Source: a virus. Taken from it: a DNA stretch of 21,180 nucleotides. The stretch lies in IMG/VR virus record IMGVR_UViG_3300025669_001229, positions 1-21,180 of that record; one strand, 5' to 3'. Made by a program: the position numbers and the translations under genes. Each line of letters begins with the position of its first letter. The first letter of the stretch is position 1. Below are positions 2,924 to 20,308 of this stretch, in pieces. The notes under the pieces were generated by a model. That model saw only the letters and a list, made by a program, of their open reading frames with translations. It did no database searches and was not told the DNA's origin.

Positions 2924-4296
2924 AGGTGCTATTTTTGTATCCGAATGTGGGCACGGAATTGCGGATTCCCCTTGCAATCTCTATCCTTATTGCTTCTCTT
3001 CGTAAGGCAAGACACGAAGTACAGCTTTTCGATACAACTTTCTACGGTGAGTTTCACACAGATAATGAAGTTATGGTTAAGATGGGCACTCATAAGGGCA
3101 CTAACCTTAACGCCCTTGTTGGTGAAACTAAACGGATTGATGTAAAAGATGCACTGACTGATGTAATCAGTGACTTTAACCCAGACATCATATGTGTATC
3201 CCTTGTGGAGAGAAACTTCCACACCGCAAAGGAACTATTGAGTGATGTGGACGTACCAGTATTGGCGGGTGGCATAATGCCAACCATTGCCACAGATTAT
3301 GTACTAAAGCAGTATTGGGTGGATATGGTATGTGTAGGAGAGGGCGAGAATGCCCTCGTAGACTACTTGGAGACCCTTAACCCCCTCACACCCAACATAT
3401 GGAGTGAGAAGCTGCATAACCCCCTTAGACCCCTTATAGACCTTGATGATGTACCTGAACAGGATTGGACAGATTTTGATGAGAGACATCTACTGAAGCC
3501 CTTTATGGGTAAAGTCTATAGAGGTGGTGCTTTTGAGTTTTCCAGGGGGTGCTTTAAATCTTGTACCTTCTGTGTTGCCCCTAAATTAAGGGAAGTCCAG
3601 AAAGGGTTGGGTTGCTACCACAGGACTAAGGCCCCCCAAACTCTCATTAGAGAGATAGAGCACAAGATAGATGACTATGACTTAACGATGCTTTCCTTTA
3701 GCGACACGGACTTCCTTGCGGGTGTACATAAGCCTACTATGGGGGAGTTCCTATCAATGTATGCAAAAAGGTTTAAGCTACCCTTCACCATGCAGACATC
3801 CGTATCCAAGCTACTGGATGAGGATGTGCTGGAGTTACTGCGGAAGTCACAGTGCTGTGCAGTGAGTGTTGGTGTGGAGAGTGGTAGCCGTAGAATACAA
3901 AAGGATGTTCTGGGAAAGGTCATACCAGAGGAAATGATAAAGAAGGCTTTTGACCTATGTAGAAAACACAAGATACGGGTGACGGCAAACTATATGGTTG
4001 GTCTCCCCTACGAGACTGAAGATGATGTCCGAAAGACCATACAGCTAAACCGCCTCATAAATCCCCCCTCGGTGGCCGTCACCTTCTTTACTCCATTTAT
4101 AGGAACTAAGCTGTATGATGTTTGTATTAAGGAGGGGTTCTACCAACCGTTTGAGGGTAAGAACCAAGAGAACGTATATGATTACCCACCACTTAACATG
4201 CCTGGGATGTCCCAGAATAAAATCAAAAGCCTAGTAGAGGAGTTTGTAATGGAGTTCAACAAATACCAAGAGGATTTTAATATAATCAATGGCTAA
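2920..4296 (+). CDS. B12-binding-type radical SAM enzyme inserted between terL and portal
   Basis: Residues 1-150 form a cobalamin-binding-like Rossmann domain (LFLYPNVGTELRIP, then NPDIICVSL, VLAGGIMPT and VGEGENALVDYLE), without an obvious DxHxxG histidine motif. The radical SAM core follows, with the 4Fe-4S motif C211-x3-C215-x2-C218 (RGCFKSCTFC). The barrel signatures SVGVESGSRRIQKDVLGK and VTANYMVGLPYETEDDV are also present. Such enzymes generate a 5'-deoxyadenosyl radical and perform methylations, rearrangements or cyclisations on varied substrates, so the reaction cannot be assigned. Length (458 aa) and motifs are complete. The start is a TTG overlapping the terL stop by 4 bases, and the 3' end overlaps portal by 8 bases, so it is built into the virion operon. 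It may serve the downstream sugar block or modify a virion component (inference). Confidence 0.85.
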   Translation: MKVLFLYPNVGTELRIPLAISILIASLRKARHEVQLFDTTFYGEFHTDNEVMVKMGTHKGTNLNALVGETKRIDVKDALTDVISDFNPDIICVSLVERNFHTAKELLSDVDVPVLAGGIMPTIATDYVLKQYWVDMVCVGEGENALVDYLETLNPLTPNIWSEKLHNPLRPLIDLDDVPEQDWTDFDERHLLKPFMGKVYRGGAFEFSRGCFKSCTFCVAPKLREVQKGLGCYHRTKAPQTLIREIEHKIDDYDLTMLSFSDTDFLAGVHKPTMGEFLSMYAKRFKLPFTMQTSVSKLLDEDVLELLRKSQCCAVSVGVESGSRRIQKDVLGKVIPEEMIKKAFDLCRKHKIRVTANYMVGLPYETEDDVRKTIQLNRLINPPSVAVTFFTPFIGTKLYDVCIKEGFYQPFEGKNQENVYDYPPLNMPGMSQNKIKSLVEEFVMEFNKYQEDFNIING

Positions 4297-6930: not shown

Positions 6931-7848
6931 ATGGAACCTGACAAAGACGTAAAGTTGGACTCGTCACCCGACATGGAAGAGGTACTAAATGACGTACCAG
7001 CAGTAGAAGGTGCACCAGCAGTAGATGGGACTCCTGCGCCCCCAGCACCTGCCCAAGAAGAAGCGGAAGTCGAAACGTCTCCTCAAGACGTTAAAGAAGA
7101 GGTAGCACCACCAGATAACCGCCCGATAGATAATGTCGCTTGGGAAGCAAAAAGAAAAGTAGATGAACTTTCCCCAAAGATAGACCAGATACTGGAACAG
7201 ATGTCTAAGGGGAGTCAAAAGAAAGAAGAACCGCAGTACAGTAAAGCTCAACTCCAAGCTTATGCTATCGCACCTGAAACGGCTACGGAGCAAAGACTCT
7301 GGGCATATGGCGAAATAAATAAGATGGATAAGACTGAGCGAATGAATGAGTACCAGGAGATAATGCAGAATACCCAGACGAAATCAATGTCTGATGTGAA
7401 ACGCAATCAGGCAAATGAGTGGGTAGCAAAGGCGTTCCCTGATACTGTCCTCAAAGATGATGCGGGAAACCCTGTAGATTGGGACAAGTCTAATCCAGTT
7501 CTTAAAAGAGCGGATGAGTACATGTCACAGAACAGGGCTTTACAGAGTGACCCTGAAGGACTTAAGGCCGCTGTAAAGATGGCAGCTTTTGACCTCGGAG
7601 TTCAGATGAATAGAAAAACACAAATTAAGCTTGACCGTACTACAGGTCAATTACGAAAGGAGCAAAAGAAACAACTTGCAAGTTCGGGTGGAAGTAGACC
7701 GACAGAGAATGCGGAACAACTGGCTCAAACTAGATATGGGGCGTTACAGGGAGCTTATAAAAAGGCTTCTAAGTTACGTGACAAAGACACAGCCAGAAAG
7801 ATTTTCGCAGAGATGTCTAAGATAAAAGGTCTCAACCCCTTCGTGTAA
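6931..7848 (+). CDS. Capsid scaffolding protein
   Basis: Scaffolds occupy the prohead, direct coat assembly and leave or are digested before packaging. The protein (305 aa) sits directly before the capsid gene. It has the typical charge asymmetry: an acidic, Pro/Ala/Glu-rich disordered N-terminus (first 75 residues), helical coiled segments in the middle, and a basic C-terminal region (QIKLDRTTGQLRKEQKK, and KKASKLRDKDTARKIF) of the kind that binds coat. A short imperfect hexapeptide repeat (PAVEGA, PAVDGT, PAPPAP) begins around residue 23, backed at DNA level by a 12-bp repeat at 6996-7007 and 7014-7025. An AGGAG Shine-Dalgarno precedes the ATG. No protease motif is seen. Confidence 0.78.
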   Translation: MEPDKDVKLDSSPDMEEVLNDVPAVEGAPAVDGTPAPPAPAQEEAEVETSPQDVKEEVAPPDNRPIDNVAWEAKRKVDELSPKIDQILEQMSKGSQKKEEPQYSKAQLQAYAIAPETATEQRLWAYGEINKMDKTERMNEYQEIMQNTQTKSMSDVKRNQANEWVAKAFPDTVLKDDAGNPVDWDKSNPVLKRADEYMSQNRALQSDPEGLKAAVKMAAFDLGVQMNRKTQIKLDRTTGQLRKEQKKQLASSGGSRPTENAEQLAQTRYGALQGAYKKASKLRDKDTARKIFAEMSKIKGLNPFV

Positions 7849-7866: not shown

Positions 7867-8802
7867 ATGGCAGGTGGAGCAGACGGAATACTACAAAGTT
7901 TTGGCTCAACAGGTGGTGCGAAGGAAGATATAGTCGATTTAATCGAACAAATATCTCCTACCGAAACGCCATTTCTTACCTTACTTGGTAAGACGAGAGC
8001 ATATAACACATATCATGAGTGGCTGACAGATGTAATGAATGCGACAGCCACTTCTGGTGACGTGGTAGCAGAAGGTGAAAGCGCAACAAACTATGCACTT
8101 CAGGATAAGACCAGATATGCCAACTACACTATCATATCTGATAGGGTATTTACAATATCTGGCACTGAAGAGAGCATATCACATTACGGTCTTGATTCTC
8201 AGTATGCCTATCAGCTTGAAAAAGCTATGAAGGAACTGAAGATAAAGATTGAGAGACAGCTTCTTGGTGCGTCAGCTGCGAGTGCTGGTGCTGAGGGGAC
8301 AGCGAGACATTTGGGTGGAGCGTTTAAGTTCGCTATAGATTATGGCAACGTAGTCAGTGGTGAAGCGTCCACATCAGCTCTCACAGAGAGTGTATACAAT
8401 GACTTGCTGGAAGATTGCTTTGAAGATGGTGGTATGCCTGACACGACATTCGTGAATGGCTGGCTGAAAAGGCGCATATCCTCATTCCAGAGTGACAACC
8501 AACGAACTAAGGAACATGACGGCAAACTAGATAGTGTAGTTGACGTCTATATTTCTGACTTCGGTCAACAGAGAATAGTTCTTGACAGATGGTGTGATGG
8601 GTTAGCCAATGCCGAAAAGGGTGCTGGTTTAACATTGGAAATGGATAAGTGGAAGATAGCTTATCTAAGACCACCCAGAACCAATCCTCTTGCGGTAGAC
8701 GGTGACAGAAAGAGTGTTCAGATACTTGCTGAATATACTCTTGAGGCACTTGCACCTACCCAGATAGGGTTCATGTCAGCATTCGCTACGGCGTCTGTTT
8801 AA
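7867..8802 (+). CDS. Major capsid protein, SU10-like
   Basis: This is the main shell protein, HK97 fold by family. The N-terminal signature (residues 20-70: EDIVDLIEQISPTETPFLTL, then the EWLTD and EGESATNYALQDKTR segments) is the pattern of the SU10-like major capsid family (formerly DUF5309). The length of 311 aa also fits. The long helix (QLEKAMKELKIKIERQLLG) and the C-terminal beta region ending in EYTLEALAPTQIGFMSAF are consistent. The nearest strong AGGAG lies 14 bases upstream of the ATG, an unusually wide spacing, and could pair with TCCT just after it (7848-7858). I keep this ATG because no better start exists. No predicted cleavage site or decoration-domain insertion is evident. Confidence 0.85.
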   Translation: MAGGADGILQSFGSTGGAKEDIVDLIEQISPTETPFLTLLGKTRAYNTYHEWLTDVMNATATSGDVVAEGESATNYALQDKTRYANYTIISDRVFTISGTEESISHYGLDSQYAYQLEKAMKELKIKIERQLLGASAASAGAEGTARHLGGAFKFAIDYGNVVSGEASTSALTESVYNDLLEDCFEDGGMPDTTFVNGWLKRRISSFQSDNQRTKEHDGKLDSVVDVYISDFGQQRIVLDRWCDGLANAEKGAGLTLEMDKWKIAYLRPPRTNPLAVDGDRKSVQILAEYTLEALAPTQIGFMSAFATASV

Positions 8803-8816
8803 CGAATAACGGCTTA

Positions 8817-8838
8817 GTGGGTGTGCCTTAACACCCAC
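8817..8838 (+). terminator. Hairpin after the capsid gene (attenuator-like)
   Basis: GTGGGTGT and ACACCCAC form a perfect 8-bp stem around the 6-base loop GCCTTA, 14 bases after the capsid stop. No T-run follows, so it is not a canonical intrinsic terminator. It may act as a partial terminator, an RNase or RNA-stability element, or a translation brake on the next gene, whose ATG (8845) lies just beyond it without a Shine-Dalgarno site. Confidence 0.5.
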
Positions 8839-8844
8839 ACCAAT

Positions 8845-9288
8845 ATGAAACCAAACTTTGAAAGCTCCCTTCGTGGAGATAGTGATGCAGAGGTTCAGAG
8901 CCTATTTAAACAGGCTATGAAGCGTAAGGAAGATAGAATGAAATATCACCTTATAGGTGAGTTGCTTAATGGAAAGACTGTGGACATCACTAAGAGCAAG
9001 CAGTTGTTTGAAACTCTCAATAAAGAGAAGTTGGAGTTTGCTCAGTTACTTAAGATGAATCCAGAGGAAGCCAAGGCATGTGCAGAGGGCGTAAAGACAG
9101 ACAAGCTAAATGTAGATGCTGGCGGTAAGTGGTGGAATCCAAAGAGTAAAGCTAAGTGGGGTAAGAAAGGTAGTATCCCTCCCTGCTGTTTCTACGCTAG
9201 ACCGAAGGAGTATTGGAAGAACGAGGGTTTTACCAACCACTTCTTTAACACCTTCACTAAATTCAGAGTGAGTGACAAACCTATATGA
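8845..9288 (+). CDS. Conserved-looking hypothetical protein after the capsid gene
   Basis: A 147-residue soluble protein. I choose ATG 8845; the frame extends upstream to a GTG at 8821, but that codon lies within the hairpin stem. Neither start has a Shine-Dalgarno site. Residues 1-75 are charged and helical (MKRKEDRMKYHLIGELLNGK, and LFETLNKEKLEFAQLLK). The C-terminal half is richer in aromatics, with GGKWWNPKSKAKWGKK, then IPPCCFYARPKEYW and FFNTFTKFRVSDK, a pattern that looks like a defined fold. I do not recognise the family. It lies between the capsid gene and the sugar block and overlaps neuB by ATGA, so it may be a minor head protein or the first member of the block. Confidence 0.7.
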   Translation: MKPNFESSLRGDSDAEVQSLFKQAMKRKEDRMKYHLIGELLNGKTVDITKSKQLFETLNKEKLEFAQLLKMNPEEAKACAEGVKTDKLNVDAGGKWWNPKSKAKWGKKGSIPPCCFYARPKEYWKNEGFTNHFFNTFTKFRVSDKPI

Positions 9289-10016
9289 AATATATGATAT
9301 ACATAATAGCTGAGTGTGGGATTAATGCCAATGGTAATGTAGAGGTTGCCAAGGAACAGATAGACCTCGCCTGTGCATCAGGTGTAAGTGCTGTGAAGTT
9401 CCAGGCATACGACAGTGATATACTACACGGTAAGAGTAGCCCTGTATATAAGGACGCTAAGAGGGGTGAGCTATCCCCTAAGAACCTACAGGTACTGGCT
9501 GACTACTCTCCAATAGAGTGGTTCGCTACCCCCTTCGATGTAGGGGCTGTAGACCTACTAGAGACCATAGGGGTTAAGAGATATAAGGTAGCCTCCCGCT
9601 GTATGACTGACTGGGGATTACTTAGGGCTATTAACGAGACTTCTAAGCCCGTTATAATGTCTACAGGTCGGCACGACAACAACGCTATAAAGAAAGCCAT
9701 AGACATACTGGACACATGCGATGTTACCCTCATGTACTGTGTACCTAACTACCCTACTAAAATTAAGGATATTAACTTTACTAGAATGGTAAAGATGATG
9801 GAGCTGTATAAGCTACCTGTGGGCTTTAGTGACCACACCACTGGTATCTGGGCATCCATAGAAGCAGTAAGATTGGGAGCAAAGGTCATTGAAAAGCATT
9901 TCACGGTATCACGTAGCCTATCTGGGTGTGACCAGGTATGTAGCCTTGAGCCGCATGAGATGAAACTACTGGTAAAGTCAATACGCCAGTTAGAGTGTCA
10001 CAGGAGCATACTATGA
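9285..10016 (+). CDS. neuB: NeuB-type nonulosonic acid synthase, catalytic barrel only
   Basis: NeuB-family enzymes condense phosphoenolpyruvate with a 6-carbon amino sugar to give sialic, legionaminic or pseudaminic acid. The TIM-barrel motifs are in order: IIAECGINANG (7-17), VKFQ (37-40), EWFATPFD (78-85), YKVAS (100-104), MSTG (125-128), YCVPNYPT (151-158), VGFSDHTTG (179-187), VIEKHFT (201-207) and GCDQVCSLEP (214-223). The metal ligands expected from bacterial NeuB (H184, H205) and the acidic D216 are present, as are lysines K38 and K101. At 243 aa it is about 100 residues short of usual NeuB and lacks the C-terminal SAF (antifreeze-like) domain, which normally completes the partner active site. 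The usual NHxG reads NANG. Which nonulosonate it makes cannot be told. It overlaps both neighbours by ATGA. Confidence 0.88.
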   Translation: MKYMIYIIAECGINANGNVEVAKEQIDLACASGVSAVKFQAYDSDILHGKSSPVYKDAKRGELSPKNLQVLADYSPIEWFATPFDVGAVDLLETIGVKRYKVASRCMTDWGLLRAINETSKPVIMSTGRHDNNAIKKAIDILDTCDVTLMYCVPNYPTKIKDINFTRMVKMMELYKLPVGFSDHTTGIWASIEAVRLGAKVIEKHFTVSRSLSGCDQVCSLEPHEMKLLVKSIRQLECHRSIL

Positions 10017-10945
10017 GCTTTAAGGCCAACGATAAGGTATACGAGATAGACCCAGGACTACGTGACCACATTAAACCAGGGTGGCAGACTATGCTACTTC
10101 CTGCCAAGGATAGGTTGGGCAAGGGGATGGACATTAACTCCTTTGTACCCTCCGTATACATGGCAGAGAAGACCCTGAATGAGCATGGGGAAACAATGGT
10201 GGGTAAGCAAATCCTTGAGGCTGGCTGTAATGAGGGTGCAAGGTCATACCTAATGGCTAAGTACCAGGATACAGTGGTTCATGGGATAGATGTTGATGAG
10301 TACACCATAGACCAATCCCCCGATATGAAGGTCTGGAATCCCATTGATGCGGAGTTTATGCAGAACAAGTTTCGTAATATGAGGGCATCGGTTGGGTCTA
10401 AGTTCCCACAGATAATGAGTAAGGTGAGCTTTGAGACCGCCAGTATTTCATCTTATATGACACCCAAGCAATACGACATGATAATAAGTTGGGATACCCT
10501 AGAACACGTTATAGACATACAGAGAGCCTTTAAGAACATGTATGATTTATTGAAGAATGGGGGAGTAGCTTATCATGAATATAATCCTTTTTTTGCTATC
10601 AATGGTGGTCATAGTCTTTGTACCCTTGATTTTCTATACGGTCATTGCCGTCTTAATTCACAAGATTTTGACAAGTACGTTAGGGAACTCAGGATGGAGG
10701 AAGAAGAGATAGACCGTAACTTCTACCACAAGTGCCTTAATCGTGCTACTAGAGCAGATATAAGAAAGCTTGCGGAAGAGGCTGGATTTGAGGTGCTTCT
10801 ATTTGCAGGTAGGTCATCCTTTGATTTACATAATATGATGAAGGCGGTGGAGATGGTGCTACCTGAAGTGAAGGAGCTATATCCCACGGTCACACTAGAG
10901 GACTTAATCCACGACCAAGTACAACTTGTATTGAGGAAGAAATGA
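10013..10945 (+). CDS. Class I SAM-dependent methyltransferase in the sugar block
   Basis: This is probably a methyltransferase that modifies the sugar or a precursor. The Rossmann core has the SAM-binding motif ILEAGCNEGARS (67-78), an acidic post-motif HGIDVDE (90-96) and YDMIISWDTLEHV (154-166). A conspicuous block EYNPFFAINGGHSLCTLDF (189-207) probably forms the substrate pocket. I choose ATG 10013, which has AGGAG (10002-10006) six bases upstream and overlaps the neuB stop as ATGA. An in-frame GTG at 9995 has no comparable site. The substrate is unknown; O- or N-methylation of a nonulosonate is a plausible role from context only. Codon choice shifts to T-ending codons around 10575-10680, possibly a mosaic segment. 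Confidence 0.8.
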   Translation: MSFKANDKVYEIDPGLRDHIKPGWQTMLLPAKDRLGKGMDINSFVPSVYMAEKTLNEHGETMVGKQILEAGCNEGARSYLMAKYQDTVVHGIDVDEYTIDQSPDMKVWNPIDAEFMQNKFRNMRASVGSKFPQIMSKVSFETASISSYMTPKQYDMIISWDTLEHVIDIQRAFKNMYDLLKNGGVAYHEYNPFFAINGGHSLCTLDFLYGHCRLNSQDFDKYVRELRMEEEEIDRNFYHKCLNRATRADIRKLAEEAGFEVLLFAGRSSFDLHNMMKAVEMVLPEVKELYPTVTLEDLIHDQVQLVLRKK

Positions 10946-11586
10946 CCAATTATTGGATAGCTAGTAATAGACCGTTTGAGGGTAGGGTAGCTACTAATCC
11001 CCGTGAACTAAGTAAGCTATTAGATGCCTACTCCCCAGATACACCAAAGGCTATTTACTTCCCCTTCTGGTCATGGAAGGTACCCTTGGATATATTACAA
11101 CGTATAAGTTGTATTGGCTTTCACTCTGCACCTCTACCAAGGGGGCGTGGTGGTTCACCTATACAGAATATGATACGTTCTGGTTATGAATATACGGAAG
11201 TGTGTGCCTTTAGAATGACTGAGGATTACGATGATGGGGAGATACTTATTAGAACTCCCGTATCACTGAGTGGTGACTTGCAGACCATAGTAAATCGCAT
11301 ATCCACTAAGATTGAAATAATGATTCCAATGATAGACCAGGGTAAGCACAGGGATTCCAAATCAGATGTATTTGGAGATGTACCTGCTCACTTTAAAAGA
11401 ATAACTAATAACACATTACCTGAGACAGAAACACTATCTCAACTCTTTGATGAAATACGTATGAGGGATGACGTGGGGCATCCAAAGGCAATTAAGTACC
11501 ATGGGAAGTATACCATAGAGTTTACAAACGCTTATTACGGGTGCGATGATAAGCTCTATGCGAAAGTGAGGATTTATGAGTCCTAA
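10942..11586 (+). CDS. Formyltransferase-like protein (methionyl-tRNA/sugar N-formyltransferase fold)
   Basis: The hallmark CIGFHSAPLPRGRGGSPIQN (57-76) corresponds to the folate-dependent formyltransferase motif NxHxSxLPxxRGxxPxQ. YDDGEIL (96-102) corresponds to the following DxG motif. H61 and D97 of the catalytic Asn-His-Asp triad are kept, but the Asn position is Gly (G59). Downstream, HFKRITNNTLPETE and FDEIRMRDDVGHPKAIKY match a branch I associate with nonulosonate and surface-polysaccharide loci rather than with tRNA-Met formylation. At 214 aa it is shorter than Fmt (about 310). It could transfer a formyl or other acyl group to an amino sugar. Starts with an ATGA overlap and runs 11 bases into the next gene. 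Confidence 0.78.
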   Translation: MTNYWIASNRPFEGRVATNPRELSKLLDAYSPDTPKAIYFPFWSWKVPLDILQRISCIGFHSAPLPRGRGGSPIQNMIRSGYEYTEVCAFRMTEDYDDGEILIRTPVSLSGDLQTIVNRISTKIEIMIPMIDQGKHRDSKSDVFGDVPAHFKRITNNTLPETETLSQLFDEIRMRDDVGHPKAIKYHGKYTIEFTNAYYGCDDKLYAKVRIYES

Positions 11587-12202
11587 TTATTTTAAGGGTA
11601 AGACCATAGTTACGTTCTTGGCACATCCAGATGATGAAGCATTGGGTTGTGGGGGTACGCTTGCGAGAGCAAGGAATGAGGGTGCAGAGATACATTGTGT
11701 AATACCCGTGAAACGTATAGCAAGTGATTGTAAAAAGGTTATGAAGAAATTAGATGCTAAAGTACATTGGGGAAACTTCGATGATAATAGTATGGATAAG
11801 TACCCACTGCTCGATGTGTGTAAATTTGCAGACAATATTATATCTAGTATTAAGCCAGATATTGTCATTACACATCACAGTAATTGCACTAATCAAGACC
11901 ATAGGGTGTGCTATGAGGCAGCTTCTATTGTAACTAAGCCCCTCAAGCGTAAGATTGATTTATGGACATGTGAGGTTCTTTCATCTACGGGGTTTCTAAG
12001 ACCCTGTTCATTTGAACCAAACCTGTACGTAGGTCTATCCTATGCAGAGCTTGATGATAAGTTGGAAATGGTTAATATGTATGAAAGTGAACTCCGAGCT
12101 GACCGTTCCACAGGGGTTGTAGAATGCCTTGCAACACTACGAGGTGCGGAGAGTGGTAATGAGCTTGCGGAAGGATTTATGGTGGTGAGGTCATATGTCT
12201 AA
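11576..12202 (+). CDS. PIG-L/LmbE-family deacetylase
   Basis: PIG-L enzymes are zinc-dependent de-N-acetylases of GlcNAc-type sugars. The metal motif AHPDDEALGCGGT (16-28) supplies H17 and D20 as ligands and D19 as the expected general base. The second motif TNQDHRVCYEA (105-115) supplies the third ligand, H109. The C-terminus RGAESGNELAEGFMVVR (189-205) is also typical. Length (208 aa) is normal and all key residues are present. A GAGGA Shine-Dalgarno just before the ATG lies within the formyltransferase gene. Placed directly after a formyltransferase-like gene, it suggests exchange of an acetyl for another acyl group on an amino sugar (inference). Confidence 0.87.
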   Translation: MSPNYFKGKTIVTFLAHPDDEALGCGGTLARARNEGAEIHCVIPVKRIASDCKKVMKKLDAKVHWGNFDDNSMDKYPLLDVCKFADNIISSIKPDIVITHHSNCTNQDHRVCYEAASIVTKPLKRKIDLWTCEVLSSTGFLRPCSFEPNLYVGLSYAELDDKLEMVNMYESELRADRSTGVVECLATLRGAESGNELAEGFMVVRSYV

Positions 12203-13238
12203 GCCTAAGATTTACTTAAGAGACTACAACGGAATATTGCAGGGACTGGGTAAGAGAGAAGACCTAGAGTTCGTGGATGACCCCCGTGATTGTGATGCCA
12301 TTGTTACGTGGCAGGATGTACGTGGGGATATGCTGGAACTGGCAAAGATAAACAAGGAACACTTTAAGAAACCCTTTATCGCAGTACAGCATGGACGTGG
12401 TTGTACCCGTGACTATGAGGCTCCTGATAACTTCCCCTTACTTGCGGATAAGTTCTGTTGCTGGGGTATGGATGACTACGATAGACTGTGCAAGCTTGGC
12501 TATAAGGACAAGGCTGTTATTACAGGCTCTCCCCTCATAAGCCGTATAAAGCATAATGATGCTCACGATGAAAAGAACATAGTCTTTGCACCAGTCACTA
12601 CAATGCACGAAGAACCAGATAACATAATTACATACCTGGAACTCAAGAAGATGGAAATGTCTAGGTCTCAGGATGTATTGAAAAAGCATAGGGCACAGCT
12701 AATAGAAGCGTGGAATCCAAAGATTGTAAACCCCTCTGCCGAGGATAAGATAAACTCCATATCCTACCTCGATATAAATACTAAATGGAGACTCATTTCA
12801 AAACTAACCCCCGTACACGATAAGGGACTTTACCCAGGGGCAATAACCCTCACCGCACCGAGCCACGCATCACACATAGAGAATTGTGTAACAATGCTGT
12901 CTCAGACGGATGTTGTCGTGTGTTTAGAGGAGGGAACATTCCAAGTGCTAGTGATGGCAATGGATATTCCCATAGTTGTAGTTAAGGGCTTTAAGCTCAC
13001 TAACTACGGGGGTGTTGATTACACTAATAGGGAAGCGGTCATAACCAAGGGTTGTGAATGGGTAGACCTTGCAGACCTGGAGAGTGCAATCGAGAGAGAA
13101 CTGGCAGACCCTGGAAGGTTGGCTAAGGAGAGAAGAGAAGTCGTTAGGAGAGAGTTTGGGGATATTACCCAAGACCCTAATGATAAAATAATAGAAGTAA
13201 TTAAGGAGCAAATTAATGGGAAAAATACTGATAAGTGA
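12195..13238 (+). CDS. Putative GT-B-fold glycosyltransferase or related transferase
   Basis: The 347-residue soluble protein shows the pattern of GT-B enzymes related to capsule and glycerophosphate transferases or UDP-GlcNAc 2-epimerases. A first Rossmann half contains PFIAVQHGRGCTRDY (60-74), then FCCWGMDDYDRL (87-98) and AVITGSPLISRI (107-118). A second half contains NIVFAPVTTMHE (128-139) and DVVVCLEEGTFQVLVMAMDIPIVVV, the usual donor-site helix region. The exact family is not certain. It could transfer the activated sugar, or act as a NeuC-like epimerase/hydrolase supplying NeuB. No membrane segment. It overlaps the deacetylase by 8 bases and the following gene by 23. Confidence 0.6.
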   Translation: MSKPKIYLRDYNGILQGLGKREDLEFVDDPRDCDAIVTWQDVRGDMLELAKINKEHFKKPFIAVQHGRGCTRDYEAPDNFPLLADKFCCWGMDDYDRLCKLGYKDKAVITGSPLISRIKHNDAHDEKNIVFAPVTTMHEEPDNIITYLELKKMEMSRSQDVLKKHRAQLIEAWNPKIVNPSAEDKINSISYLDINTKWRLISKLTPVHDKGLYPGAITLTAPSHASHIENCVTMLSQTDVVVCLEEGTFQVLVMAMDIPIVVVKGFKLTNYGGVDYTNREAVITKGCEWVDLADLESAIERELADPGRLAKERREVVRREFGDITQDPNDKIIEVIKEQINGKNTDK

Positions 13239-13644
13239 CGAGACGAACAGTGCCTACACGGCACAGGTAACAAATGGTAGACAAGTAAGAGCTAACACAG
13301 GTTCAGGTACGCATCTAGCAATAGCGTCAGGTGCATCATCTTCAACAGTGGTTCTAAACTCAACCCCATGTTGGATTGATAGGATAATCATAGGTTCATT
13401 ACCAGCCACGGCTACAGACCTACTGATATATGATACATCTGGAACCACTCTATCTGCTGCTGATTTTGATGTAGCGGGTGCTAACAGGATAGCCAAGATA
13501 GACATACCTGTTGATGCCACTGCTTCACAGTTTCCAGGTATTATAGATGTAGGTGTGTATTGCACCTCTGGACTGACGTATGCACTTGGTGGTAATTCAC
13601 TTGATGGCAATCTGGATAACATAACCATAATCTACCAGACCTAA
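13216..13644 (+). CDS. Small Ser/Thr-rich beta protein, putative virion decoration protein
   Basis: A 142-residue protein with an AAGGAG Shine-Dalgarno seven bases before its ATG, starting inside the preceding gene. It has short alternating beta-prone segments (IDRIIIGSLP, DLLIYDTSG, RIAKIDIPVD, DNITIIYQT), many Gly/Ala, and 31 Ser/Thr residues (22 percent), clustered around 36-50 (ASGASSSTVVLNSTP) and 71-80. No enzyme motif, signal peptide or membrane segment is present. It resembles small phage head or decoration proteins in style, but I do not recognise a named family. It is the one structural-looking gene in the sugar block and lies between two transferases, so it is a candidate acceptor of the sugar (inference). 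Confidence 0.65.
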   Translation: MGKILISDETNSAYTAQVTNGRQVRANTGSGTHLAIASGASSSTVVLNSTPCWIDRIIIGSLPATATDLLIYDTSGTTLSAADFDVAGANRIAKIDIPVDATASQFPGIIDVGVYCTSGLTYALGGNSLDGNLDNITIIYQT

Positions 13645-13652
13645 GGAGTACT

Positions 13653-14786
13653 ATGAAATTAGCTTTTGCTGTTCCACGTAGTGGATGTGCCTGGTGGAGA
13701 TGTATCCAACCAGCCCAGATGATAAAGAAGCTCGGCCTTGCTGAGGTTCAGGTATTCGACCAGAATACAATGGGTGAAGTTGAGATACAGGATATGCTCC
13801 AATGGAGTGATGTTATTATCCAACAGTCCCCACTGGGTATAGAAACGGTGGCATCAATAGCTAAGTTCAAAGATATGGGTAAAGCGGTGGTGGGTGATTA
13901 CGACGATTTGACGTTCTCCCTATCACCGTTTAACCCCGCATATAAGACCCTTGGGTTACGTGATGTTACTATAAAGCGTACTGATACGGGGAAGGAAGAG
14001 CTACTGTGGAAGGATGGGGTAGATGGGTTCGCCCTTAAACCTAATTACTTCCGTTACCGTTCCCTACAGGACATACTGAAGTCCCTCAGTGCAGTGACCA
14101 CTACCTGTGGGTTCATTAAGGGTAAGTACGGCGAGTTCTCCGATAATATACACATACTACCCAATTCCATTGACTTTAACCTATTCAAACCCCTCATGAA
14201 GAAAGATACAGGGCAGATAAGGATAGGATGGACGGCCTCTGATAGCCACCATGCAGAGATATGGATGGTTAAGAGGATAATGAGAAAGGTAATGGATAAG
14301 TACGGGGATAAGGTAAAGTTCGTTCTCCTTGGTAACATAGAGGGGATATGTGAAGGTGACATATCACTGGATGAGAGCGAGATTGAGAGACATAACTTCT
14401 GTGGACTGGATATATACCCACTTAAAGCAGCAGCCCTTAACCTTGATATAGGTATATGCCCCCTTAATGTGGAAGACCCCAACAGTTTAGATTTTAACAG
14501 AGCCAAGAGTCAGTTGAAGTGGTCGGAATACGCTTCCCTCAAGATACCAGCAGTATGCTCAAAGATAGAGCCATACGACTGTGTAGAGGATGGTAAGACT
14601 GGACTACTTGCGAGTAATGATGATGAGTTCGTGGATAAGATAGGTGAGTTGGTGGAGAGTGAGTACATGCGGGATAGGATAGCTACCGCTGCCTTTGAGA
14701 AGAACTATGAGGACTACAACTTAGAGAAGAACGTAGTGCTGTGGATGGAAGTGTACGAACAGGCACTGGAGACAATGAATGCTTGA
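13653..14786 (+). CDS. GT4-like glycosyltransferase (GT-B fold)
   Basis: This 377-residue enzyme has the layout of GT4-type glycosyltransferases. The N-terminal acceptor domain has FAVPRSGCAWWR (5-16) and DYDD (82-85). The interdomain segment NIHILPNSIDFNLF (165-178) leads to a donor domain with RIGWTASDSHH, FVLLGNI and KWSEYASLKIPAVCS. This is followed by a C-terminal segment (IEPYDCVEDGKTGLLA) that corresponds to the nucleotide-sugar site. It probably transfers an activated sugar to a protein or glycan; neither donor nor acceptor can be read from the sequence. There is no membrane segment. TAAGGAG precedes the ATG, making it one of the few genes in the block with its own spaced ribosome site. 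It overlaps the next gene by 8 bases. Confidence 0.8.
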   Translation: MKLAFAVPRSGCAWWRCIQPAQMIKKLGLAEVQVFDQNTMGEVEIQDMLQWSDVIIQQSPLGIETVASIAKFKDMGKAVVGDYDDLTFSLSPFNPAYKTLGLRDVTIKRTDTGKEELLWKDGVDGFALKPNYFRYRSLQDILKSLSAVTTTCGFIKGKYGEFSDNIHILPNSIDFNLFKPLMKKDTGQIRIGWTASDSHHAEIWMVKRIMRKVMDKYGDKVKFVLLGNIEGICEGDISLDESEIERHNFCGLDIYPLKAAALNLDIGICPLNVEDPNSLDFNRAKSQLKWSEYASLKIPAVCSKIEPYDCVEDGKTGLLASNDDEFVDKIGELVESEYMRDRIATAAFEKNYEDYNLEKNVVLWMEVYEQALETMNA

Positions 14787-15366
14787 TGTAAAGAGACTAA
14801 TACTGGGTACTGTTCAGTTCGGACAGGACTATGTAGTTAAGAAGGTACAACCAGATGAAGTGTATAAGATACTTAACTACGCCCATGATGTCGGCATAGA
14901 TACACTGGATACAGCATATGCCTATTCTAACTACGAGTTACTTAGTTCCTTTATGTGCTTTACGGGAAAGAAGTTTAAGATTATATCCAAGGTTAAGAAT
15001 GAGGAAGAGCTATTCACCACACTGGCTTTCTTCCCTCATATGGTGACTTGCCTTACACATGGATTTGATGAGAAATTGTTGGGGTCATTAACTCGCATGC
15101 TGGAGAACTGTAAGTCTGGTATGAGCATATATGGGAAGCATGAGATTAGGGAATGTGATGTACTACAGGTGCCCATGATTAAAGAGTTCTTACCACTACT
15201 GGATGAACACTACCACCTTCGCTCTATCTTCGGTAGGGGTGAGAAGTTGAAGGATAAGACGGTTAAGGAGTGTGTTGGAGAAGCCTTTGACACCAAGGCG
15301 GGTAAGATAGTCATAGGTGTAGATAGCTTGGCACATCTAACGGAGATAGTAAATGCAGTGGAATGA
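14779..15366 (+). CDS. Short aldo/keto reductase-like protein
   Basis: The start LILGTVQFGQDYV (7-19) and TLDTAYAYSNYELL (42-55) are the first strands of the aldo/keto reductase barrel. The catalytic tetrad is present: D44, Y49 (spacing 5 as in the family), K71 (ISKV) and H94 (CLTH). The C-terminal GKIVIGVDSLAHL matches the nucleotide-binding end. At 195 aa it is about a third shorter than usual (280-320 aa), with shortening in the middle of the barrel, so it may be a minimal version or non-reductive. Family enzymes reduce sugar aldehydes and ketones with NADPH. It overlaps both neighbours, by 8 and 14 bases. Its adjacency to the aminotransferase and cytidylyltransferase suggests a joint modification step. 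Confidence 0.75.
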   Translation: MLDVKRLILGTVQFGQDYVVKKVQPDEVYKILNYAHDVGIDTLDTAYAYSNYELLSSFMCFTGKKFKIISKVKNEEELFTTLAFFPHMVTCLTHGFDEKLLGSLTRMLENCKSGMSIYGKHEIRECDVLQVPMIKEFLPLLDEHYHLRSIFGRGEKLKDKTVKECVGEAFDTKAGKIVIGVDSLAHLTEIVNAVE

Positions 15367-16585
15367 GACTATAAAATACATATCTTGTGGTACACAGACG
15401 CTCTCTAAGAAACCCTCTATGTTTGTAGAAGGGGTATACCCTGTATACTTAGAGAGGGGTAAGGGTGCCAGAGTGTGGAGAATAAACCACCAGTCCTACA
15501 TAGACTACCCATTGGGTCTTGGAGCTATACTCCTGGGACACTCCGATAGCAAGGTTAATAAGGCTGTATCAGCACAGATGGAGAAGGGTACACTATTCAC
15601 CCTACCATCCTACCAAGAGACTGTGTTAGCCAAGAAGATAGTTGAGATGATACCCTGTGCGGAGAAGGTACGGTTCCTTAAGACGGGTAGTGAGGCTACA
15701 TCAGCGGCGATTAAGATAGCCAGAGCCTACACCAAGAAGGAGCATATAGCCTATTGTGGCTACCACGGGTGGCACGATTGGTACACTGTGGATACGGAGA
15801 AGAACGATGGTATACCCAGTTCCTATGGTGATTATATACATAAGTTCGATTATAATGACATTAAATCCCTAAAGAGTATATTCAAGAATCACGATATAGC
15901 TTGTGTAATAATGGAACCCTACATCTATGCTGAACCCGAGGATAACTTCCTAAACAAGGTTATAGACCTAGCCCATAAGAACAACTCACTTACAATATTT
16001 GATGAGGTTGTTACTGGCTTCAGAACCCTGAAATACTCAGCACAGGCTATGTTTAAAGCAACCCCCGACTTATCTACATTTGGTAAGGGTATGGCTAATG
16101 GCTACCCCATAAGCGTAGTGTGCGGTAAGTCCGAGATAATGGATGTACTAGAGGGAGATTGCTTTGTATCTTCTACCTTCGGTGGAGAGCTACTTAGTAT
16201 CGCAGCAGCCCTGGAAGTATTGAATCAGCTAACAACTTATAACATAATAGATACTATATGGGAACGTGGAGAAGAATTGCTATTAGGGTACAACTCAATA
16301 GCCAAGAAGCTGGGAATAGATACCAAGTGTATTGGTTATCCCTGTAGGACTATGTTCATGTTTCCCACGGGAGACCATAAGAGCCTGTTCTGGCAGGAGT
16401 GCATTAAGCGAGGGGTCTTATTCGGTTATGCACAGTTCATATCATACTCTCATAGTGCTAAAGATATAGACTACACACTTGAAGTTATAGGTGAAGCCCT
16501 TAGCGTGGTTAAGGATAACTGGAAGGCACCTTTAAAGGCTCTTGAAGGCGAACCAGCACAGAAAGTGTTTAGGTTGGTTAAATGA
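15353..16585 (+). CDS. Class III PLP aminotransferase, glutamate-1-semialdehyde aminomutase-like
   Basis: This is a fold-type I PLP enzyme of 410 aa. The phosphate-binding TGSEAT (111-116), YHGWHDW (137-143), FDEVVTGFR with D217 (216-224) and the PLP lysine K245 in STFGKGMANGYP are all intact. Overall it resembles HemL-type aminomutases more than ordinary transaminases. Its place in a nonulosonate-type locus argues for sugar amination rather than haem synthesis. It may take the amino-transfer step usually done by the DegT-family enzyme PseC/LegC, which is not seen here. The ATG has GGAG upstream and overlaps the reductase by 14 bases; the stop overlaps the next gene as ATGA. Confidence 0.85.
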   Translation: MQWNETIKYISCGTQTLSKKPSMFVEGVYPVYLERGKGARVWRINHQSYIDYPLGLGAILLGHSDSKVNKAVSAQMEKGTLFTLPSYQETVLAKKIVEMIPCAEKVRFLKTGSEATSAAIKIARAYTKKEHIAYCGYHGWHDWYTVDTEKNDGIPSSYGDYIHKFDYNDIKSLKSIFKNHDIACVIMEPYIYAEPEDNFLNKVIDLAHKNNSLTIFDEVVTGFRTLKYSAQAMFKATPDLSTFGKGMANGYPISVVCGKSEIMDVLEGDCFVSSTFGGELLSIAAALEVLNQLTTYNIIDTIWERGEELLLGYNSIAKKLGIDTKCIGYPCRTMFMFPTGDHKSLFWQECIKRGVLFGYAQFISYSHSAKDIDYTLEVIGEALSVVKDNWKAPLKALEGEPAQKVFRLVK

Positions 16586-17112
16586 CGCTGGCTATCATAC
16601 AGGCAAGACTTACATCTAAGAGGCTACCAGAGAAGATATATAAGACCATTGATAATATTAGGATTATAGATAGGGTTATATCTCAAGTAGAAATATCTAA
16701 GTCAATAGATAGGCTCGTAGTTGCTACACCGCACAAGTTAGATATAGATACACAACAGTTTATTGGAAGTGAAGAGGATGTTTTGGACAGGTTCTATAAA
16801 TGTGCTTGTAAGTTTAAGCCAGATACTATTGTAAGGATTACAGCAGATTGCCCTCTCTTGGACGTAGAGGTTATAGACTATGCTGTGAAGTATTATCGTA
16901 ATCATTCATACCCCTACGTGGTTATTGCACCAGTAGATGGGTTGGATGTTGAGGTATTCTCCATGGATATATTAAAAGAGGCATGGGAAAATACATCAGA
17001 TAAGGATGATAGGGAGCACGTTACTCCATATATGCGGAGAAAGACTAAGCTATCCGTAGATACGGAAGGGGATTTAAAACACGTTAGGGGGATGTATGAA
17101 CTGGGGAGATAA
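16582..17112 (+). CDS. SpsF/NeuA-like cytidylyltransferase
   Basis: These enzymes use CTP to activate nonulosonic acids or KDO-like sugars as CMP-sugars. The CTP-binding loop AIIQARLTSKRLPEK (4-18), GSEEDVLDRFY (62-72), VRITADCPLLD (84-94), DREHVTPY (143-150) and SVDTEGDLKHV (158-168) match the SpsF/CTP_transf_3 pattern. At 176 aa it is shorter than typical members (about 230-250 aa). The missing part lies mainly in a loop around residue 55 and at the C-terminus; the active-site motifs are all present. It is the natural partner of the NeuB-type synthase. The ATG overlaps the previous stop by ATGA without an independent ribosome site, so it is probably translated by coupling. Confidence 0.85.
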   Translation: MTLAIIQARLTSKRLPEKIYKTIDNIRIIDRVISQVEISKSIDRLVVATPHKLDIDTQQFIGSEEDVLDRFYKCACKFKPDTIVRITADCPLLDVEVIDYAVKYYRNHSYPYVVIAPVDGLDVEVFSMDILKEAWENTSDKDDREHVTPYMRRKTKLSVDTEGDLKHVRGMYELGR

Positions 17113-18094
17113 GACAGTCTTATTGATAGGCGGTACGGGTTCTTTTGGAAGTGCCTTTGTAGGATGCTTGGAGGGAAGATACAAACCCAAGGCATTAAGG
17201 ATATTCTCAAGGGATGAGCATAAGCAGACTCAGTTGCTCAATACCTATGCGGGTGTAGGGGATGGTAATAATGTAAGTGGCTTTATAGGCGATATAAGGG
17301 ACAAATCCCGTCTTATGATGGCAATGCAGGGAGTTGATGTGGTCATCCACGCTGCTGCTCTGAAACAGGTGCAATCCTGTGAATACAATCCCTTTGAGAC
17401 TATAAAGACCAATGTTTTAGGGAGTATGAATATCATAGAATGTGCCTTGGCTCATAACGTGGAGAAAGTGCTTGCCATATCTACGGATAAGGCGGCTGCC
17501 CCACTGAATTTATACGGTGCATCTAAGATGTGTATGGAGAGATTGTTTGTTCATGCCAATAATTATAGAGGAGTATCTAAACGTACTAAGTTTTCTTGTA
17601 CTCGTTACGGTAATGTGGCTGATAGCAGAGGCACTATAGTACCAGTATGGAGAGAGATACTAGCCAAGAAGGGTGTTATATCTATTACTAACCCCAAGGC
17701 TACACGATTTTGGATTAAGATGAGTGCCGCTAACAAGTTTGTATTGGATGTGTTGGACGCTATGGATGACCTTGATGGTGGGGAGATATTCGTACCCCGT
17801 ATGCCCTCAGTCAACATAATGACTGTATATCAAGCCATAACAGACGGAGTGACTACATTCCATGTTATAGGGGATAGAATAGGGGATAAGCTACATGAGA
17901 CCCTAATCCTTGCGGAAGAGATTAAACATACTGTGGAGATTGACCTTGGGTATATAGTATGCCCTGAGAATCCACATTGGAGTTATGCTAGACCGAAAGG
18001 CACACTACCTGGCTATATGGATGGCTATAGGAGTGATAATAATGTTCAATTCCTGAATAAGACGGAGATAAAGGAGACAATACGTGTCCACTAA
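17096..18094 (+). CDS. pseB: PseB-like NDP-sugar 4,6-dehydratase
   Basis: The short-chain dehydrogenase fold shows GGTGSFG (12-18, NAD(P) binding), FSRDEHKQ (37-44), AALKQV with EYNPFETIKTNVLGS (87-110), and the catalytic STDKA (129-133, D131-K132). Y140 and K144 (NLYGASK) complete the site. This combination is characteristic of PseB/FlaA1-type inverting UDP-GlcNAc 4,6-dehydratases, which make the 4-keto-6-deoxy sugar that starts pseudaminic acid synthesis. Length (332 aa) is normal. The C-terminal HWSYARPKGTLPGYMDGYRSD is also family-like. Non-inverting legionaminic-type dehydratases (LegB) look different, so a Pse-like branch is favoured, though the final sugar is not proven. It overlaps the first tail gene by 11 bases. 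Confidence 0.88.
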   Translation: MNWGDKTVLLIGGTGSFGSAFVGCLEGRYKPKALRIFSRDEHKQTQLLNTYAGVGDGNNVSGFIGDIRDKSRLMMAMQGVDVVIHAAALKQVQSCEYNPFETIKTNVLGSMNIIECALAHNVEKVLAISTDKAAAPLNLYGASKMCMERLFVHANNYRGVSKRTKFSCTRYGNVADSRGTIVPVWREILAKKGVISITNPKATRFWIKMSAANKFVLDVLDAMDDLDGGEIFVPRMPSVNIMTVYQAITDGVTTFHVIGDRIGDKLHETLILAEEIKHTVEIDLGYIVCPENPHWSYARPKGTLPGYMDGYRSDNNVQFLNKTEIKETIRVH

Positions 18095-18776
18095 TTTCAG
18101 TACACTTAAAACACAAGTAGGCCAGCTAGTGGGGGATACAAGCACAACCTTCCTCTCCATTATAGGGGTCTACATTAACTCACGGTATCGTGAGATACTT
18201 AGAAGAACCAACTGGAATTCGATAGTCCCAGATTACACCATAACGGCTACTTCAGCTAGTACGACTACATCGGCCTCTACATACACCCTTCCAAGTGACT
18301 TCGGTAAGGAACTGTATGTCTATGTCAATAGCATTGACATACCACATAAGACACTTGAGGCGATTGAACTGGAGTATCAGAGCCAGTTAGCTAATACTGG
18401 TAACATAGAATACTACTCTATATTCACAACTAAGGATACATCCGCTACTTCTGCTGAAGCCAGTGCAGGTAGGGTACAGAAGATAAGGTTCTGGAGAGCA
18501 CCCTCTACTGACAATACAGTTCTAATACCCTATTCAATGAGGGCTGCTGACCTTAGTGGCGATAGTGATGAGCTGGTACTGGACTGTGAGACTGCCATAA
18601 GATATGGTGCAGCTGCTGATGCTCAGTTATACAAGAGGCAGTACAAGAAGGCAGAACAGATGGAAGGTTTATACGAGAAGGCTATAATCAATCTTATGTG
18701 GGATAAGGACTTTTCATCCAACAGATTACCAGTAATGGATGCAGAAGCGTTAGACAGAGATGTGTTTGGTGGATAA
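18084..18776 (+). CDS. Head-to-tail adaptor (connector) protein
   Basis: A 230-residue protein starting at a GTG with AAGGAG (18071-18076) seven bases upstream. The N-terminus (STLKTQVGQLVGDTSTTF, then IGVYINSRYREILRRTNW) has the usual pattern of phage adaptor proteins that attach under the portal (P22 gp4-like in role). The middle is beta-rich with a Thr/Ser/Ala stretch. The C-terminal helices (ETAIRYGAAADAQLYKRQYKKAEQMEGLYEKAI) are typical of the family. The gene begins inside pseB, showing that the sugar block and tail genes share one transcript. There is no sign of truncation. The exact family is not certain, but position and layout fit well. Confidence 0.72.
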   Translation: MSTNFSTLKTQVGQLVGDTSTTFLSIIGVYINSRYREILRRTNWNSIVPDYTITATSASTTTSASTYTLPSDFGKELYVYVNSIDIPHKTLEAIELEYQSQLANTGNIEYYSIFTTKDTSATSAEASAGRVQKIRFWRAPSTDNTVLIPYSMRAADLSGDSDELVLDCETAIRYGAAADAQLYKRQYKKAEQMEGLYEKAIINLMWDKDFSSNRLPVMDAEALDRDVFGG

Positions 18777-20308
18777 TGGCTAAAGACGATTCTCCTAAAT
18801 ATGCGATAAGACGTGACCTATCTGGTGGAATGAATACTCGCCAGAATGAGAATATAATCAGTGACACCCAAGTTACACTCCTACAGAACGCTGAGATTGC
18901 TGTAGCGGGTGAGAGGTCTATGAGGAAGGGTAACACCCTATCTAAAGACCTTAGTAACGACTTCGGTACTGGGGCCTTTGGTTTTGAACCAGAGGGTGGT
19001 ACTAACGAGTTACTTGTAACTGAAGACACCTCCCTACATGGCTGTACTAATCCCGCTGGAACAGGTACAGACACCTATACAGAGCATAAGGGTGACTTCA
19101 CAGCTGATAAGCAGACCACTATAGTAAGAGCCTTAGAGAGCGATGAAGGCGATGTAGCTATCGTATCTAACGGTACAGACAACTGCTTTAGAATGAAGCA
19201 AGACCACACCATGCAAGACCTTGGAGACACCAACACTTCACCACCGCTTACTACAGTGATGGAATATTACAGAGACAGGCTATGGGCGTTAGATGGTGAG
19301 AAACTTATGTACTCAGGGGCTGTACCAGTTGACTACTCAGCTACCTTTGTAAGAGATACCAACTATTATAGTATACCTATAGGAGACCCTAAGTTCCTCA
19401 TAGGTACTAGAAACTACGGGATAATCGTAGGTGGCTCAAGTAGCATCTATGTACTTAACCCCACAGTCGTTCCTGACCCAGCAGCAGACAAGCCAGATAA
19501 GATGGTGGAGTACGGGTGCGTGGCGGGTAACACAGCAAAGCAGGTAGCTGATGACTTCCTATACCTATCCTATGATGGTGTAAGGGGTCTATTCCGTACA
19601 ATCAATGATGAACTACAGTCAGGTGATAGCAAGCCCCTATCTTGGAACCTAGAGAAGGAACTGGGTGAAATTAACTGGACATACGCTCATCTTGCTGACG
19701 CTGTTTACTTCGACAATAAGTATATGATTACACTACCCACGGGTTCTTCTACGGTCAACAACAAGATATGGGTATTCTACCCAGCTTACCAAGCCTGGGC
19801 TGTAATAACGGGTATGAGTATAGGCAGGTTCGCCACAGTTAAGATAGGTAATGCGGAGAGACTGTGTGGTATAGATGCCGCTGATGGTAGTGTCTATCGC
19901 ATGTTCTATGGCACCTCAGACAACGGTAGTGCCATTGTCTACCAGGAAGAGGGACGTGCAGAGGACTTCGGTGAACCCCTTAGAAACAAGCAGGGTGGTG
20001 AAGTTAAGATAAAGGCTATCAATAGAGGCTCTGAGGCTGTTATAACACCCTATGCTGATATAGATAATGCAGGTTATGTGCAACTGGATGGCTCCTCTTT
20101 AACTATAGAAGCGGGTGGTCTAGACTTTAACTTTGACTTCCCTTTTAACTTTGATGCTGTCCGTGGTAGTGAACAATGGCACATAGATAATCTTGGTTCA
20201 TTCAAGCAGTTTAAACTTAAACTACTGTGTAATACTAAGGATGCTGAGGTCACTATATTAGAGAACCAGATAATAACATTTGTAGAAGAGTACCAAAATG
20301 AGGACTAG
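18776..20308 (+). CDS. P22 gp10-like tail stabilisation/hub protein (beta-propeller-like)
   Basis: This 510-residue, beta-rich protein follows the adaptor directly, with stop and start sharing one base. The N-terminal RRDLSGGMNTRQNENIISDTQ is the common opening of tail proteins that close the portal after packaging. Repeated short beta units with aromatic residues (EYYRDRLWALDGEKLMYSG, FLYLSYDGVRGLFRTI, NKIWVFYPAYQAWAVITG, LCGIDAADGSVYRMFYG) suggest a propeller. A C-terminal beta domain (from about 420) ends in VEEYQNED. In P22-like phages the corresponding gp10 joins adaptor to needle. A tail-tube role cannot be excluded from sequence alone. Confidence 0.68.
   Translation: MAKDDSPKYAIRRDLSGGMNTRQNENIISDTQVTLLQNAEIAVAGERSMRKGNTLSKDLSNDFGTGAFGFEPEGGTNELLVTEDTSLHGCTNPAGTGTDTYTEHKGDFTADKQTTIVRALESDEGDVAIVSNGTDNCFRMKQDHTMQDLGDTNTSPPLTTVMEYYRDRLWALDGEKLMYSGAVPVDYSATFVRDTNYYSIPIGDPKFLIGTRNYGIIVGGSSSIYVLNPTVVPDPAADKPDKMVEYGCVAGNTAKQVADDFLYLSYDGVRGLFRTINDELQSGDSKPLSWNLEKELGEINWTYAHLADAVYFDNKYMITLPTGSSTVNNKIWVFYPAYQAWAVITGMSIGRFATVKIGNAERLCGIDAADGSVYRMFYGTSDNGSAIVYQEEGRAEDFGEPLRNKQGGEVKIKAINRGSEAVITPYADIDNAGYVQLDGSSLTIEAGGLDFNFDFPFNFDAVRGSEQWHIDNLGSFKQFKLKLLCNTKDAEVTILENQIITFVEEYQNED

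Follow-up and report, generated by a model that had tools for sequence, protein, structure and literature searches.

Our analysis of a single IMG/VR virus record (IMGVR_UViG_3300025669_001229, positions 1 to 21,180; these 21,180 bases are called the window here) shows ten intact sugar-enzyme genes and one gene for a beta-rich protein lying in a single overlapping operon between the major capsid protein (MCP) gene and the head-tail adaptor gene of an SU10-like phage. The enzyme families suggest that this block is probably a virion-glycan cassette belonging to the phage itself, by which a nonulosonic-type sugar would be made, activated with cytidine monophosphate (CMP) and placed on a virion protein. 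Synthesis of the sugar by the phage enzymes is likely from their sequences, its attachment to a virion protein would fall to soluble transferases, and a coating of the virion is plausible. In 57 other contigs, too, the capsid-adaptor slot is occupied in this way, so the arrangement, which a first-pass annotation of the window had called unusual for a phage, is not a one-off oddity.

That annotation had placed ten sugar-enzyme genes and one more between capsid and adaptor, and every one of these is an intact open reading frame (ORF) with the boundaries it had drawn. Its view of them as a nonulosonate-type set of phage origin between two core virion genes is borne out by the flanks, an SU10 MCP (7867..8802; SU10_MCP 1e-73) and an SU10 head-tail adaptor (18084..18776; SU10_adaptor 3e-13); the MCP, portal and adaptor score above the cutoffs of PF17236, PF23899 and PF24175, respectively. 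All window genes are transcribed in one direction (all are on the + strand). The capsid gene is upstream of the synthase gene neuB as annotated, but not directly so: g8821 (8821..9288, 155 amino acids) intervenes, a member of a conserved family of 145-160 amino acids with no assigned function. Neighbouring ORFs in the block mostly overlap by 1-23 bp, with overlaps at both of its ends as well, the GC content is flat across it (0.40-0.46), and promoter- or terminator-like sites inside it are not in excess (there are fewer than in shuffled sequences). The position in the operon implies late expression. An assembly chimera or a piece of captured host DNA, against which the annotation had wanted a check, has a negligible probability: nothing was found in its favour, and chimera and contamination are ruled out by independent related contigs with the same synteny, to which the uniform composition and the overlapping genes at both block ends may be added. 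Conservation of the block in further contigs means that it is neither a chance arrangement nor an assembly artefact.

The enzyme families had been named correctly, in that the proteins called PseB, NeuB and SpsF match the PseB, sialate synthase and cytidylyltransferase families. The NeuB-type nonulosonate synthase (9285..10016, 243 amino acids; Pfam PF03102 1.4e-60, 205 bits against a cutoff of 22) retains the SDH and EKH(F/Y)T motifs; its best PDB match is the sialic acid synthetase 6ncs (1.5e-38), and its closest NCBIfam models are NnaB/PseI. The SpsF-like cytidylyltransferase (16582..17112, 176 amino acids; CTP_transf_3 7e-27, 95 bits against a cutoff of 22.6) matches PDB entry 6oew (3e-15); we take 6ncs and 6oew to be Leptospira proteins. 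The PseB-like UDP-N-acetylglucosamine (UDP-GlcNAc) 4,6-dehydratase (17096..18094; Polysacc_synt_2/PseB-type 1e-77) has PseB as its closest NCBIfam model (TIGR03589, 348 bits, cutoff 408) and the UDP-GlcNAc C6 dehydratase 2gn4 as its best PDB match (5e-72), and it keeps STDKAA..LYGASK / YGA(S/T)K with the catalytic DK and YxxxK. The class III (GSA-like) aminotransferase (AT3, 15353..16585; Aminotran_3 2e-44), closest to GSA-aminomutase-like proteins in NCBIfam, has orthologues in cellular SpsF-AT3-NeuB clusters. The remaining enzymes are an S-adenosylmethionine (SAM) methyltransferase (9995..10945; Methyltransf_23 2e-15), an N-formyltransferase-like protein (10942..11586; Pfam N domain 4e-7, C domain 1e-9), a PIG-L deacetylase with its HPDD and QDHR motifs (11576..12202; PIG-L 3e-19), and an aldo/keto reductase of 195 amino acids (14779..15366; Pfam 2e-8, a match that covers about the first 70 amino acids only). 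The aldo/keto reductase and SpsF are both below typical length. In two independent contigs the formyltransferase-like gene is present as two overlapping ORFs, one for the N and one for the C domain (L006:11151-11731 and L082:8176-8761).

NeuB scans, in line with the annotation's suggestion of a gene-neighbourhood search beside SU10-like capsid genes, recovered relatives that share the MCP-g8821-NeuB order and the capsid type of the window (group 1). A scan with g8821 gave eight loci, and wherever the contig extends NeuB follows directly, except that one small gene intervenes in L005 and two genes do so in L003. Essentially the same cassette is present in three further contigs, L006, L082 and L169 (in the last, the right half only). 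Its order in L006 and L082 is NeuB, methyltransferase, DUF4910, GNAT, formyltransferase, PIG-L, methyltransferase, GT-B-fold protein, g13216, glycosyltransferase, Gfo/Idh, SpsF, PseB and AT3; the adaptor follows in L082, L006 stops inside AT3, and L169 runs from the formyltransferase through AT3 to a gene that reads as adaptor-like. A Gfo/Idh/MocA oxidoreductase takes the position of the aldo/keto reductase in all three. The genes after NeuB vary: L003 has an E1-alpha/E1-beta pair, a hexapeptide acyltransferase and a GT-B-fold protein, and L008 has a GNAT and a radical SAM protein. Because the MCP-g8821-NeuB position is constant while these genes change, the slot is stable and the enzyme set modular. 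Reading of the sequences also gave a sulfotransferase-like gene between g8821 and NeuB (L003:6847-7674), ATP-grasp-like and PdxA-like genes in the portal-scaffold interval of a related phage (L008:4138-6269), and HNH-endonuclease-like genes adjoining the capsid genes (L005:4877-5476, L008:7968-8594 and L216:8243-8944); the last are possible homing elements that could aid island exchange.

Two transferases had been predicted in the window. One is a GT4-type glycosyltransferase by family (13653..14786; Glyco_trans_1_4 3e-7, PHROG 7162 4e-23); the other, GTB12195 (12195..13238), has no Pfam, PHROG, NCBIfam or PDB sequence match and joins it through its fold only, the predicted model being GT-B (pLDDT 89). 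By sequence GTB12195 had no match among cultured phages, plasmids or solved structures, and weak partial matches in 4 of 395 Bacteroidota genomes. We favour its being a transferase, and a candidate for the one that uses the nonulosonate, because it was unseen in cellular and large-phage clusters with the same sugar enzymes and because it accompanies a glycosyltransferase gene after the capsid gene. The small beta-rich protein g13216 (13216..13644), a candidate glycan acceptor or decoration protein, is encoded between GTB12195 and the GT4 protein in each of the four group-1 cassettes that extend so far and contain both (the window, L006, L082 and L169). It evolves fast: its identity is 32-39%, whereas that of its neighbours is about 50-67%. 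An IMG/VR scan found it in the L006 and L082 contigs only, the L169 homologue being recovered later by profile. Its candidacy as acceptor is judged by position.

To survey the slot more widely, IMG/VR was scanned with an alignment of the GT-B protein, irrespective of gene context, which gave 55 loci; merged with the contigs of the NeuB scans these make 57 contigs that carry the gene. A capsid gene is upstream in 56 of them (the remaining one begins within the cassette), and the adaptor is downstream in all 25 that extend that far. The capsid-to-adaptor distance in these contigs is 6.3-13.3 kb, against about 1.3 kb in the cultured Pelagibacter phage HTVC106P (adaptor located by profile). This phage and Cronobacter phage Ss1 share the TerL-portal-scaffold-SU10_MCP order of the window, but the cultured SU10-like relatives have small genes only from capsid to adaptor (two others besides HTVC106P also have short genes there). 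Most of the capsid-bearing contigs (53 of 56) form a second group, whose capsid protein has no profile similarity to SU10_MCP that hhalign could detect (probability 0.1%) and whose order is MCP-GT-GTB-..-DUF4910-CTP transferase-NeuB-LicD-methyltransferase-adaptor. The glycosyltransferase, the GT-B protein, DUF4910 and one NeuB clade are common to both groups: the short NeuBs of the window group and of group 2 form one clade (support 100/98). A separate lineage of full-length NeuBs occupies the same slot in about ten group-2 contigs, and eight of these proteins fall in a different clade (100/98). One synthase has thus been replaced by another in place, so the synthase function is what is retained. 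Values of dN/dS of about 0.04-0.29, for those cassette families where it was measurable, indicate purifying selection on the related copies; they come from few close pairs for the glycosyltransferase, GT-B protein and DUF4910, and the pairs for NeuB, PseB, AT3 and SpsF were drawn in part from other phages and from cells. In L018 and L206 two group-2 capsid-like ORFs are separated by a 174-amino-acid ORF, perhaps an intron or insertion.

These surveys bear on whether the glycan is destined for the virion at all. The cassette might instead remodel the host surface (capsule, lipopolysaccharide or S-layer) during infection, for instance by excluding other phages or easing release; it is textbook knowledge that sets with NeuB, SpsF, PIG-L and AT3 usually serve surface polysaccharides or flagella, and such sets occur in large phages too (unrelated large phages carry PseB-AT3-..-Gfo/Idh-NeuB-FT-PIGL-GNAT, where FT is the formyltransferase). 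We consider this improbable, given the invariant capsid-adaptor position, the late expression that the operon implies, and the fact that a hydropathy scan, made with no dedicated topology predictor, revealed no clear membrane protein that could be a flippase, polymerase, lipid-linked initiating transferase or GtrA-like protein in the cassettes examined. A coating of the virion is supported instead by the strict placement of the cassette beside the capsid gene and by the absence of clear membrane proteins such as a flippase or polymerase.

Eight group-2 contigs (eleven overlapping loci) encode, between LicD and the adaptor, a phosphoenolpyruvate (PEP) mutase homologue with EDKx5NS, the hallmark motif of PepM. 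These phosphonate-type modules are at L192:13832-16541, L177:13673-16330 and L173:13272-16119, and also in L014/L193, L024/L176, L059/L191, L175 and L204. Downstream of the PEP mutase in the three examined (L192, L177 and L173) come two phosphonopyruvate decarboxylase-like half-proteins, an iron-containing alcohol dehydrogenase of the phosphonate type and a cytidylyltransferase, assignments that are best matches and all below the NCBIfam cutoffs. The module suggests phosphonate-bearing glycans, which is consistent with the coat idea. We propose, tentatively and with slightly more doubt than belief, that no fewer than two phage lineages keep an exchangeable island dedicated to glycans in the capsid-adaptor interval. 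It would supply a self-made CMP-nonulosonic-type sugar, joined in about eight of the group-2 contigs by a phosphonate made through this module and LicD, and would give a phosphonoglycan coat on the capsid.

Several findings weigh against a virion-borne nonulosonic sugar. The window NeuB stops after its barrel, and the SAF/antifreeze-like domain (PF08666), which Pfam finds in the NeuBs of L021, L044 and L053, is absent from it. By reading of the sequence, the formyltransferase has GFH where its family usually has NxH. No cassette protein of the window reaches an NCBIfam equivalog cutoff, and neither Pfam nor NCBIfam detected a PseC-type (DegT) aminotransferase, a PseH or a recognised PseG-type hydrolase in the window, so the near-complete pathway that had been claimed holds for its PseB, NeuB and SpsF families but not for these other parts. 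The canonical pseudaminic set of PseC, PseH and PseG together is thus not present; there is a class III aminotransferase, and a formyltransferase for PseH (a GNAT is present in L006 and L082). No cultured member carrying the cassette was found, and in the GenBank phage collection NeuB is in three records and the GT-B protein in none. A fold search with g13216 yielded noise-level matches only (best Z 7.1), so it was rejected as a known decoration protein. Lastly, the nearest folds to GTB12195 are UDP-GlcNAc 2-epimerases (Z 19.5), followed by TarL/TagF (Z 18) and NeuC (Z 16.4), so that epimerases fit at least as well as transferases, and the fold alone cannot tell transferase from hydrolase. GTB12195 might then be the missing UDP-sugar hydrolase/2-epimerase in the PseG/NeuC role, for which the window offers no other candidate, with the GT4 protein as sole sugar transferase. 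We think this unlikely, as GTB12195 was not seen in the large-phage and Bacteroidota clusters with the same sugar enzymes, the gene is always paired with a glycosyltransferase gene in group 2, and the group-2 core retains it without PseB.

The cellular comparisons raise a further question about the sugar. At a threshold of E<=1e-70, 57 of the 395 Bacteroidota genomes have AT3 orthologues, and most of the 16 regions read contain a SpsF-(transketolase)-AT3-SDR-NeuB cluster (SDR, short-chain dehydrogenase/reductase) with a gene for about 180 amino acids before NeuB. Its counterpart in a Methylomagnum plasmid (L095) is annotated as a haloacid dehalogenase (HAD) hydrolase, and this order, with a SAF-less NeuB, is conserved in L150-L164 and L095. 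A SAF-less NeuB is therefore ruled out as a phage-only invention. These clusters support the idea that SpsF, AT3 and NeuB work together, and they resemble the cassette in having these three in proximity; they differ in being cellular, in having SDR, HAD and transketolase instead of PseB, formyltransferase and PIG-L, in lacking GTB12195 and in having a NeuB of another clade. The closest cellular NeuB found, in a scan with narrow patterns, is only 38% identical, so no donor can be named. The product could fall short of a true nonulosonic acid, being Kdo-like (3-deoxy-D-manno-octulosonic acid) or some other ulosonic acid, and still be virion-bound: SAF-less NeuBs occur in those Bacteroidota clusters, SpsF matches KdsB models (NCBIfam) as well, and L003 has an E1/transketolase-like pair as do many of the clusters. 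This too is the less probable choice, since a PseB-like dehydratase is present, the window has no KdsC-like HAD protein, and the phage NeuB clade is separate from that of the Bacteroidota.

For a nonulosonic-type virion glycan we infer the following scheme, in which the precise identity of the sugar, the sequence of steps, the donor and acceptor used by either transferase, the location on the virion and the function are all proposals. The cassette would be expressed late, alongside the head genes. The PseB-like dehydratase and the class III aminotransferase would build an amino-deoxy precursor, whose N- and O-substituents the formyltransferase, PIG-L and methyltransferase could tailor; NeuB would condense the precursor with PEP, and SpsF would activate the product as a CMP-sugar. 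GTB12195 and the GT4 protein, two soluble GT-B-fold enzymes, may then transfer the glycan to a virion protein co-transcribed with them; g13216 and the capsid protein are possible acceptors. The glycan might hide or alter the particle surface, or serve adsorption to the host or to particles. Compared with the PseBCHGIF and Leg pathways, the window is alike in its PseB-like dehydratase, NeuB/PseI-type synthase and cytidylyltransferase, and differs in its class III rather than DegT aminotransferase, its formyltransferase rather than PseH, its lack of a recognised PseG and its SAF-less NeuB. Glycosylation of virions by phage transferases is already known: according to PMC12363180, which cites Freeman et al. 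2023, phage-encoded glycosyltransferases glycosylate the capsid and tail of mycobacteriophages Che8, Corndog and Myrna. Such transferases acting on capsid or tail proteins, demonstrated there, are suggested by the genes here; the difference is that this phage also encodes apparent sugar synthesis and CMP activation, with the whole set between capsid and adaptor. A literature search of partial coverage returned no description of phage nonulosonate cassettes or of a phage pepM.

The rest of the window is a virion gene cluster in the order small terminase, large terminase, B12/radical SAM, SU10 portal, scaffold-like, MCP, g8821, sugar block, adaptor and further virion genes. The terminase small subunit (778..1188; Terminase_2 1.8e-16) and large subunit (1472..2923; PHROG 38, 6e-77) are followed by a B12-binding radical SAM protein (2920..4296; Radical_SAM 4e-19, B12-binding 2e-11), the SU10-type portal (4289..6430; SU10_portal 7e-23) and a probable scaffold protein (6931..7848), which has no family match and is named for its place between portal and MCP and its conserved synteny. 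A head-closure-like protein (18776..20308; weak matches to PHROG 578, 3e-4, and PHROG 5107, 1e-6) follows the adaptor. Homologues of the B12/radical SAM gene lie upstream of the large terminase gene in L006 and L007 and within the cassette in some group-2 phages. A third phage group (L010:3456-18554; L009, L013, L019, L027, L029, L030 and L043) has a legionaminate-like set directly upstream of its terminase and portal genes (TerS-TerL-portal), made up of PseA-, HisF- and DegT-like proteins, a hexapeptide transferase, a SAF-less NeuB, a PseB-like protein, an SDR and NeuC.

If the proposal is correct, these phages would own, beyond the addition of a host sugar, the whole set of steps leading to a sialic-acid-like coat, in some cases with phosphonate, and would regulate it together with the capsid, an unusually elaborate means by which a phage might cover its shell. 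They would offer a clear test system for the environmental roles of virion glycans in adsorption, aggregation, grazing and evasion of antibodies or receptors, and virus particles would join the possible origins of nonulosonates and phosphonates.

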